Assembly (NCBI GenBank): GCA_002840755.1 | Contig: PHBZ01000002.1 | Location: forward strand, 434,001 to 498,000 | Source of the DNA: Chloroflexi bacterium HGW-Chloroflexi-10 | GTDB lineage: Bacteria; Chloroflexota; Anaerolineae; Anaerolineales; Anaerolineaceae | Reading direction: 5' to 3' | DNA length: 64,000 bases | In this document: positions 2,542 through 28,170 of the stretch, one piece after another | Layout of the letters: every line of letters begins with the position of its first letter | Numbering within the stretch: the stretch's first letter is position 1 | Notes under the pieces: generated by a model | What the model saw: only the letters and a program-made list of their open reading frames with translations | Told to the model about the DNA's origin: nothing | Databases searched by the model: none | Program-made: the position numbers and the translations under genes

Positions 2542-3705
2542 TCAAAAAACACCTTGCATAGACTGGGCATATCCGGTTAATTCTACATATCCCCAGCCAG
2601 TAACCTGTTTGCCATTAATCATTCCAGTCACTCGAACAGCTCCTTCCCAATAACGAAAAAATAATTTCATTTCCTGATCATTTATCACCGGTTCAATAGT
2701 CAAATTCAGATCTAATCCAGGAATTGCCACTTCCCAAAGGCTTGGATATTGAAAATTCTCTTCAGTTTTCCAAAAACCCACTACTGAGATGTTAAAATCT
2801 TCCATTGTTAAGATGGTTTGTTTTCCGCTCAATGGAATATAAGTTCCGGATGAGTAAGAGCTGATCCCACCCGATTGATCTCTTATCTGAAAAAGCATCA
2901 ATTCTTCACCCTGGTCCAATTGGATCGAAAACCAATCCCATCCAAGATTATTTTCTCCAAGGGTACTGGTGCCAAATTCATGATCCATCCAGCTTGTTCC
3001 GGAAACAGACAGGGTTTCATCATTGATTCGAATGACTCCACTGGATTCTAACCTGGGTTGACTGTAATAAAATGAGGCATTTCCAGGGATCACTCCTTTC
3101 TGACTGTAACCATCGATCCCATGGAGTACAACCCCCTTTGTGTCTATTAAGGAAAGCTCTAATTGAATTCCATCGGATTGTGCCAGTAGCTCATAAACAC
3201 CCTCACCAGTTTGTTTCACATGCCAATCCAATAGCCAAACTTCAAAATTTGTACCTCCCACAGCTCCTGAAAGTCCAGCAGCGCCTCTCGCCAATTTCTC
3301 AAATGCATAATGATTCCCCTCCGCTGTGTCGGTAATCGCAAAATGTGCCAGATAGAAATCGGTAGCGGCCCATATTGAAGTACGATTAGATATATCTGTC
3401 ATGTCAATATTTGGAATCCCTCTTCTAAAAAACGTGAGTTGGTAGCCAAAATGGTTGCCATTACTGGTTTCGAGATTGCCAGTGTAATACCACCACTCAG
3501 TCTGATAATCCAAATGCGGACCTTGATCCTCCGGAAATTGAAATGGATACGCCCCTGTGATTTGCTTAAATCGGTTATCCGGATTCGTTGCCATTTGAGA
3601 TACCTGTAAAGAAGATTCAATTTGTTTTTTTCCACCACATGCAGAAAGCACTACCAGTTGTATCAAAGCAAAAAGCAATATTCCACTTAACATTTTTCTA
3701 TTCAT
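2542..3705 (-). CDS. AttH/CrtC-like lipoprotein (carotenoid 1,2-hydratase superfamily)
   Basis: A 387-residue lipoprotein. It has a signal peptide with lipobox LSAC at about residues 20-23, then a lipocalin-like two-part beta domain of the CrtC/AttH superfamily. Typical sequence includes DYQTEWWYYTGNL near residue 66, GYQLTFFRRG, and SWMDHEFGTS...GWDWFSIQL in the second half. Despite the superfamily name, no carotenoid function is implied. In Agrobacterium-type attEFGH clusters the same protein follows an FtsX-type ABC exporter, and that is the order here. The start overlaps the permease stop by 8 nt, so the three genes form one translationally coupled operon. Its likely role is with a lipid or lipoprotein substrate handled by the exporter, outside the membrane. 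Confidence 0.85.
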   Translation of the reverse strand: MNRKMLSGILLFALIQLVVLSACGGKKQIESSLQVSQMATNPDNRFKQITGAYPFQFPEDQGPHLDYQTEWWYYTGNLETSNGNHFGYQLTFFRRGIPNIDMTDISNRTSIWAATDFYLAHFAITDTAEGNHYAFEKLARGAAGLSGAVGGTNFEVWLLDWHVKQTGEGVYELLAQSDGIQLELSLIDTKGVVLHGIDGYSQKGVIPGNASFYYSQPRLESSGVIRINDETLSVSGTSWMDHEFGTSTLGENNLGWDWFSIQLDQGEELMLFQIRDQSGGISSYSSGTYIPLSGKQTILTMEDFNISVVGFWKTEENFQYPSLWEVAIPGLDLNLTIEPVINDQEMKLFFRYWEGAVRVTGMINGKQVTGWGYVELTGYAQSMQGVF

Positions 3706-6250
3706 TATGTAATACCTGTATAGTTCTTAATCGAATCAAGCGCAGTGTCGGATAAATTCCAGCAGCCATAGCAGCCAGAACGGCGAAAATTACGCCATTC
3801 AGAAGTAACAATCCATCCAAGTGGATTTGCAATGTCCACCCAAAAGATCGCAGGTTGATGATATATATCAGGATATATGAAATAACAATGCCTGTAGGTA
3901 TAGCAAAAATACCCGCAAACAATCCCATCAAACCAGTTTCAAAAAGAATTAATCGCCAAAATTCATGAGATTGCACACCCAACGCCTTTAAAACCCCAAA
4001 TTCATGCCTTTTATCCAGGAGAATCAATAAAATCGCACTCAAAATTCCAATAAAAGATACAAGTGTGGCAATAAATCGCAATGCATAAGTCACCGTAAAT
4101 GTACGATCAAAAATCTCCATAACATTTTTTTTGAGGGTCTCATTATCCCGGATCATTACTTTTTGTTTATTCTGGCTCGTTGCTTTTTGCAGCTGCCACA
4201 CCATATCCTGAATTCTACTCTCGTCTTCCACCATCAATGAAATGGTAGTTGCTTCAAATTCAGGCCAACTTTGAAGATATACGTTCTTCTCCATTAAAAA
4301 ATATCCCTGATTGGAAGAATAATCATAAAAAATACCGGCTATCGGATATTCCTGTTGTCCTTTAGTAGTTTGAATGGGTATTCTATCGCCTACACGAATA
4401 TTCAATCGATTTGCCAATGGTTCGGAAACAAAAATATATCCTCCTTCAAAATATTCCCTGAGAACTGGGGGAGTATCCAGTTTTTGTTTAAACAATCGTT
4501 CATTAGCAATATCAGCGTTACTTACCACGCTCATCAATAAATCACCTTCACCTGAGGATACCTTAGTAGAAAACAAATAATCGATTTCTTTGATCCCATT
4601 TTGTTCTTCTATAGTTTCGAGTATCTGCTCATCAATCCTGGCTGCAGAATTATTGGCCTGTTGCCCTGGAATAGATACATATATATTTCCATTTAATGTC
4701 TCATCCAGCCAGATTTGAACAGTATTTCTAAAACTCCCGATCATTAGACCCATTCCAATCGTGACGGAAATAGCCACCATCAATGCAGCAATCGCAATCG
4801 CGGTCCGCGACAGTGATCGGTATAATTCTCGGGCGGCCATACCTGCAAACAACCCAAAATACTTACTCAAAAAACGTGCAATGGAAGGCAGCAACAGTTC
4901 CAGGCAAACAGTAGATAAAATGGAAAAACCTATTACAAATAATAAGGTTGCAAAAAAGGACCACCAAAGAGTTTTAAAAATAGGAAAAAACAAAAAGAAA
5001 AGCCCTGCCGCAAAGGCGATAAGCACAAAAACAAATGAGCGTCCCAAAGTCCCCTGTGCTTTTTTTTCTAGACTGGAACGGATTCCAGCCATTCTTGGTG
5101 TAACCCGTGTCGCTTCCAATGCGGGTGGTATGGTCGCAAGCACAGTTGCGCCGATTCCCAATAGTGCCCCCTTTATTAAACTCAACTGAGAAACAGAGAC
5201 CTCACGCACTGTTGTAACAAAATATAAGTCATTGATCGTCTGTAAAACAAGATTAACGGTCTGCTTGCCCATTAATATGCCGGCCAATAAACCAAAAAAA
5301 GTACCCACAATCCCTATGATTGTGGCTTCAAAAATAATCACAAAAAATATTTCCCGCTTATAGAATCCTATCCCTCTCATCAAACCAATTAATTCTCTAC
5401 GCTGGATAACCGAAAATGTCATGGTGTTATAAATGAGATATACACCGACCACAAGAGCCAACAAACTAAGCGCGGTTAAATTAATCTGAAAAGCAGACAC
5501 CAGGTTGTTAATTTGTTCAGATTGTTCATTGGCAGGAGATACCATAAGAAGTTCCGATAAACTTTCATTTAAAGTATCTATCTCATCCGGAGAATCCAGA
5601 ATGACTTCTATCCGGTCTAGAATCTTTTCTTTACCTAAAATTTCCTGAGCACTAGCAATATCCGTTATGATTAATCCCTGCAAAGCTTGATTTTGCTCTT
5701 TGGAACTCGCCTGTATTAAACCAGCAATAGTTGCCGTATTTTCTCGCCCTTCAAAACCAAGATGGATTTCGTCACCCAATACAAGATTGTATTTCGATGC
5801 GGTTTCCGATGACAGAATAACACTGCCTGGCTGACTTAATAAAGTCATGGATTGGCCTTGCTCTATGTGACTCCCCTGGTAATACTCACGAAACGGGTAA
5901 TCAGATATCGGATCAATGCCAAACAACAAGAAGGTGCGATTTTCTAGCTCAATCACATTTACATAAGCCTCTACAATGGGTGATGCTGTTTCAATAACTC
6001 CAGAACGCATCAGTTTCGCAAACTCGTCTTCTTTTATTCCGCCTTCAATAGAAGTAATTTGATGAGTAGCTCTTCCGATAATACTTTGAGTACTAAGTTC
6101 CAACGCTTTCCTGGAGCCTTCATTAGCATAATCGACGGCTACCACAACCGAAACGCCTAACAATATCCCCAATACCAATAGCAGAGTCTGGCCAATACGC
6201 CTGGACAGGTACCTGATCCCAAATCGGATCAGAATATAATTATTCCGCAT
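3698..6250 (-). CDS. Large FtsX-family ABC transporter permease (AttF/AttG-like fusion)
   Basis: About 850 residues with two FtsX repeats. The first membrane helix is near residues 15-40, followed by a long external MacB-like domain (about 40-260), three helices (about 260-390) and a further helix group (about 405-485). A second external domain (about 500-720) and three last helices complete it. Such double permeases pair with LolD/MacB-type ATPases and drive extraction of lipids or lipoproteins rather than transport through a channel. The start is the ATG at 6250, inside the end of the ATPase gene; an in-frame TTG at 6265 is a weaker choice. The overlap implies coupled translation. The substrate is unknown. 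Confidence 0.85.
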
Positions 6251-19448: not shown

Positions 19449-20630
19449 TCAATCTTTTCTTACGATCAGCCCTTTAAGATAAGCACCTTCAGGAAATGCC
19501 AGCCCAACCGGATGGTCTATACCTTGATGTAAACGTTCCAGAATCATGCCATCCGCACCGGCATCCAGGGCTGCATCTGCAACAATTTTCTGAAACAAAG
19601 CTTCAGTAAGACCACCGGAACAGGAAAATGTAATTAGCACCCCGCCAGGGCGTAATAATTTAAACCCTAGCAGGTTAATATCCTTGTATCCGCGGGCTGC
19701 CCTCTCAACCTGAGCAGCGGTTGGTGCAAATTTTGGTGGATCCAGAATGATCACATCAAATGACCTCCCCTGGTCGCGCATCTTTCGCAAATGTTGGAAA
19801 GCATCGGCAGCAATCCACTCCGTATTTTCATTTTCCAGACCATTTATTTTTACATTTTCCTGCGCTACAGCTAATGCTTCCTGGCTGCTGTCCATAGAAA
19901 CGACCATCCGCGCACCGTTTCCCAAAGCATGTACACTGAACCCACCTGTAAAAGAAAATACATTCAGTACATCCTTACCAGTACAATATCGGGCTGCTAT
20001 CTGCCGGTTCTCCCTTTGGTCTAAATAAAAACCGGTTTTTTGGCCTTCTTTTAAATGTACCTGGAATTGATATTTTCCTTCTCGAATGAGTACAGAGTCA
20101 GGAACACTTCCGCATATCAATCCTACACGTGGTACCAGCCCTTCCAATTTACGCACATCCACATCAGAGCGCTCAAATATGTTTGCCACACCGGTTTCGA
20201 GCAATAACGCTTCTATGATCATTTCGCGGCAGTATTCCGCCCCGCTGGAAAGTATTTGAACGACCAATACATCATTATATAGATCAACAACCAGACCGGG
20301 CAATAAATCGGATTCACCATGAATTAACCGCCAACCGCTATCCTCAGTCATTTCCCGGATTTGAGCCCTTCTGGCAAGCGCATTACGTATCCGCATTCGA
20401 AAGAATGCCAAATCAATGGCTTCCTCTTTGAAGCTCCAAATCCGTCCTCGTATCTGAGAATATGGGCTATACGAAGCAATTCCCAAAAATTGTTGGTTGG
20501 AACCGTAAACAGCCACGCTTTCACCATTCGCTGGTTCGCCTTGAATTTCCTGTACTGCACCAGAAAATATCCACGGATGTTTTTGTAACAGCGCTTTTTC
20601 TTTTCCACTCTTCAAAATCATTTTATTCAT
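19449..20630 (-). CDS. rlmI: Class I rRNA (cytosine-C5-)-methyltransferase, RlmI family
   Basis: A 393-residue SAM-dependent methyltransferase. An N-terminal PUA-like domain (about 1-75, KSGKEKALLQKHPWIFSGAV) precedes an RlmI-type middle segment (GQKTGFYLDQRENR near 195-210) and a Rossmann methyltransferase domain with VLNVFSFTGGFSVHA and the catalytic-loop motif LDPPKFAP near 300. The E. coli homologue makes m5C1962 in 23S rRNA. The start overlaps the ligA stop by 4 nt (ATGA), so the two are co-translated. Confidence 0.85.
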   Translation of the reverse strand: MNKMILKSGKEKALLQKHPWIFSGAVQEIQGEPANGESVAVYGSNQQFLGIASYSPYSQIRGRIWSFKEEAIDLAFFRMRIRNALARRAQIREMTEDSGWRLIHGESDLLPGLVVDLYNDVLVVQILSSGAEYCREMIIEALLLETGVANIFERSDVDVRKLEGLVPRVGLICGSVPDSVLIREGKYQFQVHLKEGQKTGFYLDQRENRQIAARYCTGKDVLNVFSFTGGFSVHALGNGARMVVSMDSSQEALAVAQENVKINGLENENTEWIAADAFQHLRKMRDQGRSFDVIILDPPKFAPTAAQVERAARGYKDINLLGFKLLRPGGVLITFSCSGGLTEALFQKIVADAALDAGADGMILERLHQGIDHPVGLAFPEGAYLKGLIVRKD

Positions 20631-22805: not shown

Positions 22806-23165
22806 ATGAAATTTATTGGGTATATTGCGGCCGCTATTTTAATCCTGTTTGGGGTTTTGTTTATCCTCAGTGCATTCAGTCCGCAAGGCCAGGTAGGAAA
22901 TATCATTGTTGGAATAATACTGGTAGGAATAGCATTTGGAATAATTTATTTTGTTACCAAAAAAGCCAAAGAGGCTGCTAACAATACCACAAATGTAACG
23001 TTAAATATTGATTTGCCTGGGAAAGTAGCCATTGAATCAATGAAATGCCAATCCTGTGGCGGTGTATTAACCGCAGACGCAATTTCAATGGTTAATGGAG
23101 CCCCTATGGTATCTTGCCCGTATTGTCATACCACCTACCAGATAACTGAAGAACCAAAATGGTAA
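22806..23165 (+). CDS. Small membrane protein with C-terminal zinc ribbon
   Basis: A 119-residue protein. Two hydrophobic helices (about 5-23 and 33-51) form a hairpin, so both ends are probably cytosolic. After a Thr/Asn-rich segment comes a four-Cys zinc ribbon, CQSCGG...CPYCH (about 77-107). The start is the ATG at 22806 behind GGAGG; the TTG 12 nt upstream overlaps that site. I do not recognise a named family. It is the first gene of the tight five-gene block with the DUF2207 protein and radical SAM enzymes, 28 nt from the next gene, and may act as a metal- or protein-binding helper there. Confidence 0.75.
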   Translation: MKFIGYIAAAILILFGVLFILSAFSPQGQVGNIIVGIILVGIAFGIIYFVTKKAKEAANNTTNVTLNIDLPGKVAIESMKCQSCGGVLTADAISMVNGAPMVSCPYCHTTYQITEEPKW

Positions 23166-23193
23166 CCTGCTAATTCAGGAGAATGGAGAGAAA

Positions 23194-24879
23194 ATGCAGA
23201 AAATTCGATTATTGTTTATTTTGCTGATTGTAGTACTGTTGGCCGGCAATACATATCCGGTCGCTGCACAGGATTATTACTTCGCTGTAGAACGCCAGAC
23301 AGCGGATGTCTTTGTCAATGAAGACGGCTCACTTTCAATAGAATATACATTTGTATTTGTAAACCAACCCGGTGCTCATGAAATTGATTATGTCGATGTA
23401 GGTTTGCCCAATAACAATTATGTTCTGCGTAGCATCACTGCGGATATAGATGGCACTCCAATAACGGATATCGAAAAATCAGATTATATCGATATTGGCG
23501 TAGCCCTCGGTTTGGGTTCAAAAGCAATTCCGCCCGGTGGTCGCGGCACTGTTCACATGTTCGTTGAAACGGTGAATAAATCTCTCTATCCATCAGAAGT
23601 GGAAGCAGATGAGGACTATGCCAGTTTCGAATTCTCACCCAACTGGTTTGATGGCCAATACGTAACCGGCAATACAGATTTGACCGTTACATTATATTTA
23701 CCGGTTGGTATGGAAGAAGATGAACCACGTTATCATCTCCCCGAAAACTGGTCCGGTGTCGCGGAACCCGAAAGTGGCTTTGATAATGTCGGCGGAATTT
23801 TTTATCGCTGGCACGATCCAAATGCAAACGTATACACGCAATACACCTTTGGCGCAAGCTTCCCGGCTCGTCTGGTCCCTGAAGCACAGATTGTTAAAGC
23901 ACCTGCGATCAACCTTGATTTCGATGCCATTTGCCCTGCATTGATGTGTCTGGGTTTTGTAGGCTTTTTCATTTTGACCATTTACGGCGCCACAGTAGGT
24001 GCCAAAAAACGCAAAATGCAATACCTGCCGCCCAAAATTTCTATTGAGGGTCACGGAATTAAACGCGGCCTTACAGCGATTGAAGCAGCCATCCTCATGG
24101 AACAACCCATCGATAAAGTGTTTACCATGATCTTGTTTTCTGTCCTCAAAAAAGAAGCTGCCGAGGTCGTGACTCGTGAACCTTTGAAAATTAAAGTAGC
24201 CGAAACCAAACCGGATGGATTATTCGATTACGAAATCGCCTTCCTGAATGCTATGAAAATCGAAGATAAAAAGGAACAACGTGCAGCTTTACAAAAGGTG
24301 ATTGTTGATCTGGTGGATGCAGTATCCAAGAAAATGAAAGGTTTCAGTCGCAAAGAATCGGTTGCCTACTACAAAGATATTATGGAAAAAGCCTGGAATC
24401 AGGTGGAAACTGCCCAAACGCCCGAAGTAAAATCTATAAAATATGACGAAAACATTGAGTGGACCCAACTGGACAAAAACTTTGATAACCGCACCCGCGA
24501 TACATTTGGAACAGGTCCGGTGTTCATACCTACCTGGTGGTGGCGTTATGATCCGGTTATCCGCCCCACCATGGCGTCTGGCTCCATAAGGCCATCTTCA
24601 ATCCCCAGTGGCTCCGGGAACACGTCAGTTAATTTACCGCAATTACCGGGAGCAGATTTTGCAGCATCGGTCACCAATGGTGTCTCAGCCTTCGCTGCCG
24701 GCGTGGTTGGTGATGTAACTAACTTCACCAGTGCTATCACCAACAAAACCAATCCGGTGCCGAAAACCACTGGCGGTCGTTACAGTAGTGGCGGAGGCAA
24801 AAGTGGCGGCGGAAGTTCATGTGCCTGTGCCTGTGCCTGTGCCGGTTGTGCATGCGCTTGTGCCGGTGGGGGCCGCTAA
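23194..24879 (+). CDS. DUF2207 membrane protein with Cys-Ala repeat C-terminal tail
   Basis: A 561-residue protein. The signal peptide (1-26, ending VAAQD) precedes the external DUF2207 beta domain (about 27-240). A single membrane helix (about 245-268) follows, then a cytosolic domain (about 270-420) with AAILMEQPIDKVFTMILFSVLKK. A low-complexity Gly/Ser/Thr region ends in CACACACAGCACACAGGGR (residues 543-561): seven Cys alternating with Ala, then a Gly-rich end. By topology the tail is cytosolic. DUF2207 proteins have no firm function. The tail looks like a modification substrate, and the next genes encode a PqqD-radical SAM-SPASM enzyme, its cysteine-free paralogue and a methyltransferase, the first starting within this stop codon. 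Metal binding by the tail is the main alternative. Confidence 0.8.
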   Translation: MQKIRLLFILLIVVLLAGNTYPVAAQDYYFAVERQTADVFVNEDGSLSIEYTFVFVNQPGAHEIDYVDVGLPNNNYVLRSITADIDGTPITDIEKSDYIDIGVALGLGSKAIPPGGRGTVHMFVETVNKSLYPSEVEADEDYASFEFSPNWFDGQYVTGNTDLTVTLYLPVGMEEDEPRYHLPENWSGVAEPESGFDNVGGIFYRWHDPNANVYTQYTFGASFPARLVPEAQIVKAPAINLDFDAICPALMCLGFVGFFILTIYGATVGAKKRKMQYLPPKISIEGHGIKRGLTAIEAAILMEQPIDKVFTMILFSVLKKEAAEVVTREPLKIKVAETKPDGLFDYEIAFLNAMKIEDKKEQRAALQKVIVDLVDAVSKKMKGFSRKESVAYYKDIMEKAWNQVETAQTPEVKSIKYDENIEWTQLDKNFDNRTRDTFGTGPVFIPTWWWRYDPVIRPTMASGSIRPSSIPSGSGNTSVNLPQLPGADFAASVTNGVSAFAAGVVGDVTNFTSAITNKTNPVPKTTGGRYSSGGGKSGGGSSCACACACAGCACACAGGGR

Positions 24880-26222
24880 TGTCTTTGACCCACTGGTTAT
24901 CCAGGGTCCGTAAAGACCAAAAGAGGATAATTCCCAAAACCGGGATATATCACTTTGAACGTAATGCCCTTCAAGCGAAAAATCGGATTCATCTCCGTAT
25001 TGAAGAGGATGGTAACGGCCTATTAATGATCAATGCTGCCCGGGCATATCATCTTAATCCAACGGCCACTACAATCGCTTATTGGGCTCTCTCAGGAGAT
25101 ACAGACCAGGAAATCCTTCATGGATTAAGAAAACACTTTGCAATCGATTCAATCCAGGCACAATCGGATGCGCTCCCTTTCCTTGATCAACTTTCACAAA
25201 TCACCGATCCTAATGAAATCTGTCCGGTATGTGAAATGGATATGGATATGGATTTGCCTTTCTCTCATGTTCCTGGTTCTCCATATCGCATGGACCTGGC
25301 TATAACCTATCGCTGTAATAATGATTGCCTGCATTGTTACAATGCTCGTCCACGTTCATACCGGGAGTTGGATACGCCCTCCTGGTACCGAATTATCGAT
25401 CAACTGTGGGATTTGGCAATTCCTCATATCGTGTTTACCGGTGGAGAACCCACGCTGCGCAAGGATTTACCCCAATTAATCACCTACGCAGAGAAAAAGG
25501 GGCAAATAACCGGCATCAATACCAACGGTCGTAATTTAGCCAAAAAAGAGTACCTGCAAACCCTGGTTGATGCCGGATTGGATCACATACAAATCACTTT
25601 AGAGTCAGTAAATCCTCAAATCCACGATCAGATGGTGAATTTCAAAGGCGCATGGAACCAGACGGTGGAAGGCATCCGCAATGCCGCGTCGGCAGGTGTC
25701 TACATGATGACCAATACCACCATGCTCACCACCAATGTCCACACCATTGCGGATACACTTGATTTCTTAGCGGAACTTGGTGTTCCCACAGTAGGATTAA
25801 ATGCCTTAATTTATTCAGGCAAGGGATCTCAGGTTGGTACGGGTTTGCGAGAAAATCAACTGGCCGAGCTCTTGGAGATGGCCAAGGAAAAAACTACGCA
25901 GCATCAACAAAAGATGATCTGGTATACACCAACACAATATTGCCGCTTCAATCCACTCACACATGAACTGGGGATTAAAAGCTGCTCTGCGGCCCTTTAC
26001 AACATGTGTATTGAACCGGATGGTGCTGTACTACCCTGTCAATCCTATTATCAATCTTTGGGAAATATTTTGGAAAAACCCTGGAAAGAAATTTGGCAGC
26101 ATCCATTAGCGGTCTCGCTCCGTGAACGAAGAAACTTGCCGGAAAAATGTCAGGGCTGCGAGTTAATCGTCGAGTGTGGTGCAGGCTGCCCCCTGGCATA
26201 TGAGCCTGAACCTGCGAATTAG
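24879..26222 (+). CDS. Radical SAM/SPASM maturase with N-terminal PqqD-like domain
   Basis: A 447-residue predicted peptide-modifying enzyme. Domain 1 (about 35-108) is PqqD-like, the RiPP recognition fold (LLMINAARAYHLNPTATTIA). A CxxC pair (C115, C118) follows. The radical SAM core has C146, C150, C153 (CNNDCLHC) for the 4Fe-4S cluster and FTGGEPTLR for SAM binding. The SPASM region has C369, C377, C387 and the set C424-x2-C427-x5-C433-x3-C437, enough for auxiliary clusters. The ATG overlaps the DUF2207 stop as TAATG, so translation is coupled. By family, such enzymes install thioether or C-C links in peptides. Action on the DUF2207 Cys-Ala tail is inferred from gene context only. Confidence 0.88.
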   Translation: MSLTHWLSRVRKDQKRIIPKTGIYHFERNALQAKNRIHLRIEEDGNGLLMINAARAYHLNPTATTIAYWALSGDTDQEILHGLRKHFAIDSIQAQSDALPFLDQLSQITDPNEICPVCEMDMDMDLPFSHVPGSPYRMDLAITYRCNNDCLHCYNARPRSYRELDTPSWYRIIDQLWDLAIPHIVFTGGEPTLRKDLPQLITYAEKKGQITGINTNGRNLAKKEYLQTLVDAGLDHIQITLESVNPQIHDQMVNFKGAWNQTVEGIRNAASAGVYMMTNTTMLTTNVHTIADTLDFLAELGVPTVGLNALIYSGKGSQVGTGLRENQLAELLEMAKEKTTQHQQKMIWYTPTQYCRFNPLTHELGIKSCSAALYNMCIEPDGAVLPCQSYYQSLGNILEKPWKEIWQHPLAVSLRERRNLPEKCQGCELIVECGAGCPLAYEPEPAN

Positions 26223-26243
26223 TTTGTTTGGGAGATTGTAATT

Positions 26244-27428
26244 ATGAATATTGTTCAAAAAATCAAATCCATTTTTTTTGAGAAAGCCGTTCCATTGCCA
26301 GTTGGCTTGTACCAGCTTACAACCCCGGCAGATAGTGAAATTCCTTACCGTATGCATTTGCGGATTGAACCGGGTGGTGCTGGCGTATTAATTATTAATG
26401 CCAGTACAGTTTTACACCTCAATCTTACAGCAACAGAATTTGCATACCACCTCATAAAACAAACGCCCAGGGAAGAAGCGCTTCAGAGTATTGTTGCCCG
26501 ATTCAATATCTCGTACATGCAAGCCAAAGAAGACTTTATGGGATTCGTTAATAGAATCAATACAATGATTAACGCAGAAGACCTGGACCCGGTAACTTAT
26601 CTGGATTTCGAATTAGAAAAACCCTTCCAGGGTATTCCAGTCGCACCATATCGGATGGATTGTGCCCTCACCTATAAACTCTATGGCGATCTGGAAAACA
26701 AACTTTCACCAGTCGAACGAGTGAAACGCGAATTATCCACAGAGGAATGGAAAACAGTACTGACCAAAGCCTGGAATGCGGGTATACCTCACGTAATCTT
26801 CACCGGCGGAGAGGCTACCCTTCGCCCCGATCTGCCCGAATTACTGCAAATCTCCGAAGATCTTGGGCAGGTAACCGGTTTAATTACCGATGGCTTGCGG
26901 CTGAGTGAAAATGAATATCTGGATCAGTTGCTCAATGCCGGTCTGGACCATCTACTCATTACCCTCGATACCGCAAATGAACAATCCTGGGAAGCGATAA
27001 AGGATGTTATCCAGCAGGATATTCACACCACTGTCCATCTTACACTCAACGAACGCACGATCGAAGATACAAACCCAATCTTAATCCGGCTGAAAGAAAT
27101 GCAGGTAACCCATCTATCGCTCACAACAAGCAGCAAGACCCTTAGCGAATCATTCCAAAAAGTGCGTGATACGGCTGCCAATATGGGTTTTAACCTGGTA
27201 TGGAATTTACCGGTACCCTACTCGCATTACAATCCGGTTGAAATGGAAACAGAAAACGGAATATCAAACCCGGAAGGCGCTGCGAAGGGTTGGATTTATC
27301 TGGAACCCGATGCCGATGTATTACCGGAACAAGGTGTCAATGTAGTTTTGGGTAATTTATTTGAAGATACTTGGGAGCAGGTCTGGGCTAAGGCAACAGA
27401 TTATCTCAACACCAAACATGAGTCTTGA
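26244..27428 (+). CDS. Degenerate radical SAM/SPASM paralogue lacking all cluster cysteines
   Basis: A 394-residue paralogue of the preceding enzyme, alignable almost without gaps over its first 200 residues. The PqqD-like domain is kept (about 35-108). FTGGEATLR is kept as well. The three cluster cysteines are replaced: L146, L150 and K153. The SPASM cysteines are also gone: YLEPDADVLPEQ replaces the C-containing counterpart. The only Cys is C140. The frame is intact and has its own ribosome site (GGGAG), so it is not a decaying pseudogene. It should not bind a 4Fe-4S cluster. A role as a substrate-binding or scaffold subunit of the active enzyme is likely. The gap to the previous gene is 21 nt. 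Confidence 0.85.
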   Translation: MNIVQKIKSIFFEKAVPLPVGLYQLTTPADSEIPYRMHLRIEPGGAGVLIINASTVLHLNLTATEFAYHLIKQTPREEALQSIVARFNISYMQAKEDFMGFVNRINTMINAEDLDPVTYLDFELEKPFQGIPVAPYRMDCALTYKLYGDLENKLSPVERVKRELSTEEWKTVLTKAWNAGIPHVIFTGGEATLRPDLPELLQISEDLGQVTGLITDGLRLSENEYLDQLLNAGLDHLLITLDTANEQSWEAIKDVIQQDIHTTVHLTLNERTIEDTNPILIRLKEMQVTHLSLTTSSKTLSESFQKVRDTAANMGFNLVWNLPVPYSHYNPVEMETENGISNPEGAAKGWIYLEPDADVLPEQGVNVVLGNLFEDTWEQVWAKATDYLNTKHES

Positions 27429-28170
27429 TTTTTGGCATCAACGCTTCCTTCAACAAGCCTCCTGGACAGCCTACACCAGAAAATTCATACTGGAGCAAAT
27501 TTCACCCCCTTTACCATTTCGCGTACTCGAAATTGGTTGTGGTACAGGCGCTGTACTGAGTGAATTTAACCGGCAAGGCAATCTCCTGACCGGATTGGAT
27601 CTGAACTACCAATCAGTCGTTTTTGCCAGACAAAAGCATAAAACAGGAAATTATATGGCAGGTGATGCCTATCACCTGCCAATTATTTCAAATACCTTTC
27701 ACCTTTGTTATTGTCATTATCTGCTGCTTTGGCTCTCAGATCCATATTCGGTTATTAAGGAAATGCAGCGTGTAACCCAGCCTGATGGTTGGATTTGCAT
27801 ATTCGCCGAACCCGATTACCAGGCCAGGGTTGACTTTCCCTTGGAATTGGAAACTCTGGGACTCCTTCAAAACCAATCCCTGGTTGCCCAGGGTGCCTCC
27901 CTGACCACCGGACGAAAACTGGCTGCATGGTTAGCAGATACTGGCTTAAAGCAAATCCATTGGGGAATCATCGGTGCTCACCAGGCAAGCCAGCCAAACA
28001 CCTCAGATGGACAGCTAGAATGGGAAACATTATCAAGAGATTTATCTCCTCATATTTCTCAGGATGAAATTAATCGTTATCAGGAAATAGATCAGGCATC
28101 CAGAAACCAGGGTAAACGCATCCTCTACATCCCAACCTTCTATGCCTATGGCCAAAAAGAAAAAAAGTAA
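27418..28170 (+). CDS. Class I SAM-dependent methyltransferase
   Basis: A 250-residue Methyltransf_11-type enzyme. Motif I is VLEIGCGTG (about 36-44), the acidic residue of motif II lies in LTGLDLNYQ, and motif post I/IV is AGDAYHLPI...FHLCYCHYLLLWLSDP. The start is the ATG at 27418, which overlaps the end of the degenerate radical SAM gene by 11 nt. This tight coupling makes it part of the same maturation block. It may methylate the same peptide tail or a small molecule; the sequence does not tell which. Confidence 0.83.
   Translation: MSLDFWHQRFLQQASWTAYTRKFILEQISPPLPFRVLEIGCGTGAVLSEFNRQGNLLTGLDLNYQSVVFARQKHKTGNYMAGDAYHLPIISNTFHLCYCHYLLLWLSDPYSVIKEMQRVTQPDGWICIFAEPDYQARVDFPLELETLGLLQNQSLVAQGASLTTGRKLAAWLADTGLKQIHWGIIGAHQASQPNTSDGQLEWETLSRDLSPHISQDEINRYQEIDQASRNQGKRILYIPTFYAYGQKEKK

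Follow-up and report, generated by a model that had tools for sequence, protein, structure and literature searches.

Five adjacent genes in Chloroflexi bacterium HGW-Chloroflexi-10 probably form an operon that matures the Cys-rich C-terminal tail of a membrane protein. This is how we read the sequence of a 64,000-nucleotide stretch (contig PHBZ01000002.1 of assembly GCA_002840755.1, positions 434,001 to 498,000), which we call the window and number from its first letter. We refer to the membrane protein as SUB and to its neighbors as ZR (a membrane zinc-ribbon protein), RS1 (a radical S-adenosylmethionine, or SAM, enzyme with PqqD and SPASM domains), RS2 (a paralogue of RS1) and MT (a methyltransferase). 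In the proposed scheme, RS1 would dock through its PqqD domain and modify the tail of SUB. The five-gene block is a conserved system found in many Chloroflexota. The full set, in the same order and on the same strand, is present in 38 of 61 loci (38 genomes), and many of the remaining loci are truncated by the end of a contig.

The Cys tail and its proposed radical SAM partner

In the window, SUB ends in SSCACACACAGCACACAGGGR, with the seven Cys described in the initial annotation. A Cys-repeat end is visible in the fetched stretches of 124 of the 128 genomes of the window's family that have a SUB match. The other four are three genomes where the contig ends (G031, G063 and G065) and G125, where the match lies in a fused protein. 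Taking all fetched loci together, 157 genomes have a Cys-repeat tail, 126 of which end in precisely the 19 residues CACACACAGCACACAGGGR (16 of the 126 have an extra A or CA ahead of it). Fifteen of the 157 have an HSAC-type tail, and one of these, G157, has the Cys-Ala type as well. The remaining tails are near variants with one CA unit fewer, GGGGG for GGG, or DS or AS for AG, and the tail of G128 is damaged, with an N and a shifted end.

The 126 genomes encode CACACACAGCACACAGGGR by 126 distinct DNA sequences; a smaller count of tail codons comprised 81 distinct sequences. All 19 third codon positions vary, while only one first position (in an Arg codon) and none of the second positions do. 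We consider the tail to be highly constrained because it is kept almost unchanged while SUB relatives are only 36–72% identical to the window's SUB over their whole length. Judged from these sequences, it is under strong purifying selection and ranks among the most constrained parts of SUB. Near-invariance together with synonymous variation excludes a chance low-complexity run.

We next consider how often the tail and the enzyme occur together. In a sample of 147 genomes from the family, RS1-type proteins matched in 127 genomes (E <= 1e-40) and SUB in 128 (E <= 1e-8), and the two sets differ in seven genomes. The three with RS1 only (G064, G089 and G101) each have an operon cut at the contig end. 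SUB lies at a contig end in G031, G065 and G099, the last of which has an RS1 fragment, and G125, a SUB-only genome, has just the outside domain of SUB. One family genome, G038, is a single contig that is 99% complete and gave neither an RS1-type nor a SUB match.

In a second sample of 400 genomes from the phylum (RS1-type threshold E <= 1e-36), SUB was found in 29 genomes and RS1-type proteins in 31, and all 29 are within the 31. The two extra genomes are G242, which has RS2 alone, and G281, which has the sister system described below. The initial annotation had asked whether the radical SAM proteins are widespread without a Cys-tailed partner. They are not in this sample, as 30 of the 31 radical SAM-positive genomes carry SUB or its sister-system relative with a Cys-repeat tail, and G242 is the exception. 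The converse case, a Cys-tailed SUB without RS1, was not found in the searched genomes other than at contig ends. Within the genomes searched, and again excepting G242, this rules out a general role for the two radical SAM proteins that needs no tailed partner. SUB is present in 9 of the 10 phylum-sample genomes from the window's family and in 18 of the 26 from other families of the order, so the system is common, not universal.

The profile searches covered Chloroflexota. A wider contig search for RS1 used six short peptide patterns, which reach close relatives only, and gave 4 loci. A plasmid collection gave 369 records, all with less than 60% identity. We also considered three loci from other phyla (L002, L003 and L004; 29, 27 and 35% identity) as relatives of the system and set them aside, since none has a Cys-tailed membrane protein among the listed open reading frames (ORFs) and all fall outside the clade of system enzymes in the tree below.

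Two distant relatives of SUB came up in a profile search, in G519 and G157, each beside a distant RS1 relative (32 and 35% identity). These proteins have different tails, of roughly 48 residues built from (H)SAC repeats. G519 belongs to another order than the window's, and in that order the SUB relative, which we call SUBH, is present in 14 of 15 genomes. The HSAC tail is on the SUBH contig in 13 of the 14 and on a second contig in G545. Where the contig allows, the gene order is SUBH, a PqqD-radical SAM-SPASM protein (RSH), a coiled-coil-like protein and a membrane zinc-ribbon protein. The RSH proteins of L139 and L141, the two that were scanned, have PqqD, Radical_SAM and SPASM above cut-off. 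The coiled-coil-like protein is at L139:6612-7808 and L141:1483-2574.

The SUB and SUBH profiles show homology across 412 columns (hhalign probability 99.8%, E 5.5e-28). We built a tree of 40 radical SAM proteins, including 14 others from outside the system. The system enzymes RS1, RS2 and RSH fall together in a single clade (100/100) that excludes those 14. This clade splits into RSH (100/100) and a branch joining RS1 and RS2 (99/98), while RS1 alone is weaker (81/45). Because RS1 and RS2 group against RSH, RS2 is a duplication inside the system that followed the split from RSH. G157 has both systems, and its stated contamination is 8%. A different tail occurs with a sister enzyme clade in another order, and therefore the tail and the enzyme travel together. 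At the sequence level, this strongly suggests that they work together. The Ala-Cys dipeptide is common to both types of tail.

Proteins of the operon

All five genes are on the + strand in the order ZR-SUB-RS1-RS2-MT, between positions 22806 and 28170 in the ORF listing of the window (Table 1). They are separated in turn by 28 bp, a 1 bp overlap, 21 bp and an 11 bp overlap, and the 1 bp overlap (TAATG) puts the start codon of RS1 within the stop codon of SUB. The genes and their spacing are as the initial annotation gave them.

Table 1. Genes of the operon and the SUB tail, in window coordinates.
Feature	Position	Strand	Description
ZR	22806..23165	+	two-helix membrane protein, C-terminal double CxxC zinc ribbon; ATG at 22806
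SUB	23194..24879	+	561-residue membrane protein, Cys tail; proposed substrate
SUB C-terminal tail CACACACAGCACACAGGGR, residues 543-561	24820..24876	+	near-invariant
RS1	24879..26222	+	PqqD-radical SAM-SPASM enzyme; proposed tail maturase
RS2	26244..27428	+	pseudo-radical SAM paralogue; proposed docking or chaperone subunit
MT	27418..28170	+	class I SAM-dependent methyltransferase

SUB. The AlphaFold model of SUB (mean predicted local distance difference test score, pLDDT, 83.3; predicted template modeling score 0.48) has a signal helix (residues 2-18), a beta-sandwich (30-224), a single transmembrane helix (243-273), a helical domain and a disordered end (525-561), in which a Gly/Ser-rich linker precedes the Cys tail. 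Lys and Arg are more frequent after the transmembrane helix than before it in 48 of 48 SUB and 13 of 13 SUBH proteins. Because of this excess, and because the model has a signal helix and one transmembrane helix, the tail is predicted to be cytosolic, on the same side of the membrane as RS1.

The outside domain of SUB could not be named from its fold, as the best listed Foldseek matches (ribophorin-like and aminopeptidase-N-like) have TM-scores to the query of 0.27 or less and are uninformative. We did see the same domain in other contexts, and it may be a general extracytoplasmic module. In L084 (G024:C13:299000-308000), some 34 kb away from that genome's own operon, the domain (match 4276-4890) belongs to an open frame of 900 residues on the - strand, and the end of this frame (RGGSW...GFRC) resembles formylglycine-generating-enzyme-like domains. 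In G125 (L083, G125:C69) it is inside a 1001-residue open frame, also on the - strand (match 4781-5428), which ends in repeats that we take to be a sensor beta-propeller. A different partial relative is found in G396 (L140:4297-5441, - strand), where a second ZR adjoins a 238-residue SUB-like protein with a transmembrane helix and a cytosolic domain. This protein has neither the outside domain nor the Cys tail, and no radical SAM gene adjoins it, which counts in favor of our proposal.

The initial annotation called SUB a DUF2207 protein. We set this aside as a strict label, since the SUB of the window has no Pfam match at E <= 0.1, and it has no NCBIfam match, TIGR04222 included, at E <= 1. 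A distant relation does hold through other members of the family. The two DUF2207 models each match 2 of 48 SUB proteins (PF20990, best E 0.018; PF09972, best E 0.029), and of the two SUBH proteins scanned with PF09972 (cut-off 24.4 bits), that of L141 is over the cut-off with 25.5 bits and that of L139 is under it with 16.1. TIGR04222 gives weak matches to 11 of 48 SUB proteins at E <= 1 (best 7.8e-5) and to 10 of 13 SUBH proteins at E <= 0.1 (best 1.8e-7). Its cut-off of 43 bits is not reached: the SUBH of L141 scores 22.8 bits and the best SUBH about 31, as estimated by ratio. From these matches, the relation of SUB and SUBH to TIGR04222 is clear and sub-threshold.

RS1 and RS2. In Pfam, RS1 scores above cut-off for PqqD, Radical_SAM and SPASM, which bears out the PqqD-radical SAM-SPASM enzyme of the initial annotation. 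CxxxCxxC is present in 50 of 52 RS1 relatives (the remaining two are C-terminal fragments), and there are further invariant Cys, which we take to be those of SPASM. RS2 matches Radical_SAM only (Pfam, E 2.1e-14). It was annotated as a paralogue without the cluster Cys, and the window protein indeed lacks CxxxCxxC, as do all 44 RS2 relatives, although two of these are fragments that do not extend to the site. The RS2 model has a pLDDT of 87.2, and its nearest solved folds are PqqE, SkfB and SuiB. By its sequence conservation, RS2 is a conserved pseudo-enzyme.

There are loci where this arrangement differs. In the genus that we call g10 (for example L044, L045-L049 and L092-L094), the tail is altered, with DS for AG or a longer Gly run, and RS2 is absent. 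L125 (G504:C163, 2357-4841) has RS1 followed by a second, partial copy of the C-terminal SPASM end with 68% identity to that of the window. The gene pair between them is presumably toxin-antitoxin-like, and the arrangement suggests that a duplicated gene received an insertion. In the second family of the order, several loci have other genes between RS1 and RS2 or MT. Genes within or next to the operon in L129, L130, L131, L133 and L134 include a protein of about 347 residues with a C-terminal hydrophobic stretch, what we take to be a phosphatase-like protein, and, in L131, presumably an M28-like peptidase. The inserted genes may be extra maturation or signaling parts.

MT and ZR. MT matches Methyltransf_11 (Pfam, E 3e-19), and its NCBIfam scores are BioC/UbiE-like and far under cut-off. 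The zinc-ribbon matches of ZR are weak and all under cut-off. Its relatives have two CxxC and a PKW end in 51 of 51 cases and two hydrophobic helices (in the eight printed), and ZR comes before SUB in 51 of 61 loci.

Proposed mechanism and its alternatives

The mechanism that we propose would begin with insertion of SUB in the membrane, which would place the tail in the cytosol. PqqD-type domains are the usual peptide-recognition modules of radical SAM peptide maturases, and the PqqD domain of RS1 would hold the cytosolic domain of SUB or its linker, with the dead paralogue RS2 helping in most lineages. RS1 would then move along the repeated Ala-Cys dipeptides and convert them. The likeliest product would be carbon-sulfur (thioether) bonds, an assignment that we make tentatively and give modest weight, because such enzymes, when they act on Cys, most often form thioethers. 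MT would methylate the tail or its carboxyl end, or act elsewhere on SUB, and ZR would be a membrane partner of the cytosolic domain of SUB.

We expect the tail to stay on SUB because none of the five window genes belongs to a protease or exporter family, as judged by Pfam. Some loci of the second family do have what we take to be a peptidase-like gene in between. The modified tail would then be left uncut, as a fixed metal-binding or redox tail at the inner face of the membrane. The most specific form of the proposal, in which RS1 turns the Cys-Ala tail into a permanent, protein-bound, cross-linked structure at that face, is one that we regard as possible and somewhat doubtful. The initial annotation had already named the cytosolic tail as the substrate. 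The predicted location of the tail, its presence in 30 of the 31 genomes and the pairing in the sister system are in favor of this, and the modification itself is still a proposal.

Several observations weigh against our proposal. Co-conservation could reflect any joint function, and the missing protease and exporter families are also a point on this side. In the phylum sample, SUB is present in only 18 of the 26 genomes from the rest of the order. The hydropathy scan, which is a simple one, adds another internal stretch in 5 of 48 SUB rows (2 of 13 for SUBH) and seven hydrophobic stretches past residue 420 over the 48 SUB proteins, which makes the topology less certain. RS2 appears to be dispensable in g10, since the RS2 profile finds only RS1 in all nine g10 genomes searched (it finds both in the control, G075) and these nine genomes without RS2 keep the Cys tail. 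In three g10 genomes (G042, G046 and G048), RS1 is on another contig than SUB; ZR, SUB and MT form a block on one contig, so that MT adjoins SUB even here, and the tail is kept as CACACACDSCACACAGGGR. In G242 (L160, G242:C35), RS2 is present (2613-3743, - strand), and SUB and RS1 were not detected. The neighbors of this RS2 are phosphatase-like and methyltransferase-like genes. The top NCBIfam scores of RS1 are to NirJ2, PqqE and AhbC, two of which are tetrapyrrole enzymes, and all are far under cut-off.

The tail could also bind metal without any modification. The thiols would then hold metal or iron-sulfur clusters directly, and RS1 and RS2 would receive iron, sulfur or electrons from them or serve the tail in some other way. 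The CxCxCxC and CxxxC/HxxxC spacings are of a kind that suits metals, the HSAC tail is also His-rich, and ZR is a zinc-ribbon protein. However, we consider direct metal binding unlikely. It leaves unexplained why a PqqD-type domain is kept on both RS1 and RSH and why the type of tail and the enzyme clade change jointly, and it would seldom need an exact 19 residues with fixed Ala.

Another explanation is that RS1 makes or modifies something else, such as a tetrapyrrole-like cofactor or another protein, with the SUB tail acting in that pathway as a sensor or docking element at the membrane. The NCBIfam models that score best on RS1 and the resemblance of MT to small-molecule methyltransferases would fit with this, but the scores are far from the cut-offs (147.6 of 500 bits for NirJ2) and there is no further small-molecule pathway family among the five window genes. 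In addition, no Cys-repeat ORF was flagged beside RS1 in the three g10 genomes where it lies apart, and the Cys tail of SUB is kept there, so we think a separate product of RS1 is quite improbable. We give even less credence to the idea that the tail is under its own constraint, as a localization or turnover signal, and that its linkage to the radical SAM genes is mere operon inheritance. The operon does look vertically inherited, in which case linkage alone is weak evidence, and the protein in L140 shows that a tail-less SUB-like protein exists. But a Cys tail recurs with the same enzyme clade in a divergent order where the tail is different, the co-occurrence persists in the three g10 genomes where the physical linkage is lost, and Cys-tailed SUB without RS1 was seen at contig ends alone.

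Relation to known systems

The nearest comparison for SUB is with the TIGR04222 membrane proteins. In PMC12452194, TIGR04222 proteins with Cys-rich ends are proposed as substrates of MNIO (DUF692) enzymes, their tails are placed in the periplasm, and radical SAM is mentioned only in the reference list (two mentions). In both systems, the proposed substrate of a linked enzyme is a membrane protein that combines an outside domain with a disordered Gly/Ser/Cys C-terminus. They differ in the enzyme, since a PqqD-radical SAM-SPASM protein, in most cases accompanied by a pseudo-enzyme, takes the place of the MNIO here, and in the tail, which here is nearly fixed in sequence and predicted to be cytosolic rather than periplasmic. 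We found no MNIO match among the five window proteins (Pfam, and the best 25 NCBIfam matches of each), a scan that covered these five proteins and not their wider surroundings or the rest of the genomes.

Cys repeats are also paired with radical SAM/SPASM enzymes in the TIGR04117 (Cys-Xaa-Xaa-Xaa repeat) and ACGX (TIGR04340 enzyme) systems. The targets in those systems are small peptides, whereas here the repeats form the C-terminus of a membrane protein of 560 residues. One of 13 SUBH proteins matches TIGR04117 marginally (E 0.016), and the TIGR04340 scores of RS1 (70 bits) and RSH (88-97) are far under the cut-off of 400 bits.

Small peptides are the best-known targets of such enzymes, and the substrates of PqqE/PqqD, SkfB and SuiB are short precursor peptides. 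RS1 has the marks of the PqqD-dependent radical SAM-SPASM maturases (CxxxCxxC, SPASM Cys and a PqqD (RRE) domain), and the likeness to these three extends from the architecture of RS1 to the fold of RS2 (6c8v, 6efn, 5v1q). We did not find a small precursor here. Among ORFs of at least 80 amino acids between positions 20500 and 31000, the only Cys-repeat product is the 561-residue SUB (shorter ORFs were not searched systematically), and there is no other Cys-repeat product among ORFs longer than 100 amino acids in the 4.3 kb around RS1 in L005. QhpD and the anaerobic sulfatase-maturing enzymes are radical SAM-SPASM proteins that do have whole-protein targets. Those targets are soluble or exported subunits and not the repeat tail of a membrane protein.

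The initial annotation knew of no described system with this composition. This holds for our searches of open-licence PubMed Central (PMC) papers, in which we found no mention of a link between radical SAM enzymes and DUF2207, of the tail or of this system. What is not new is the idea of Cys-tailed membrane proteins as substrates, which PMC12452194 proposes for MNIO. For DUF2207 itself, PMC10457818 reportedly describes a deletion study of one such protein in Streptococcus mutans.

The two parallel tails, Cys-Ala and His-Ser-Ala-Cys, come with sister enzymes and are a ready-made test of specificity, and genus g10 is a natural experiment on the role of RS2. The link to TIGR04222 suggests a single membrane scaffold whose Cys tail is handed to different maturation enzymes. 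If our proposal is true, radical SAM peptide chemistry would reach the tail of an intact, membrane-anchored protein, which would be kept instead of released, and a pseudo-radical SAM subunit would usually present the full-length membrane protein to RS1. The cross-linked tail would then be a built-in cofactor or metal trap in most sampled members of a bacterial order. The tail is fixed like an active site, and its function is probably important to these bacteria.

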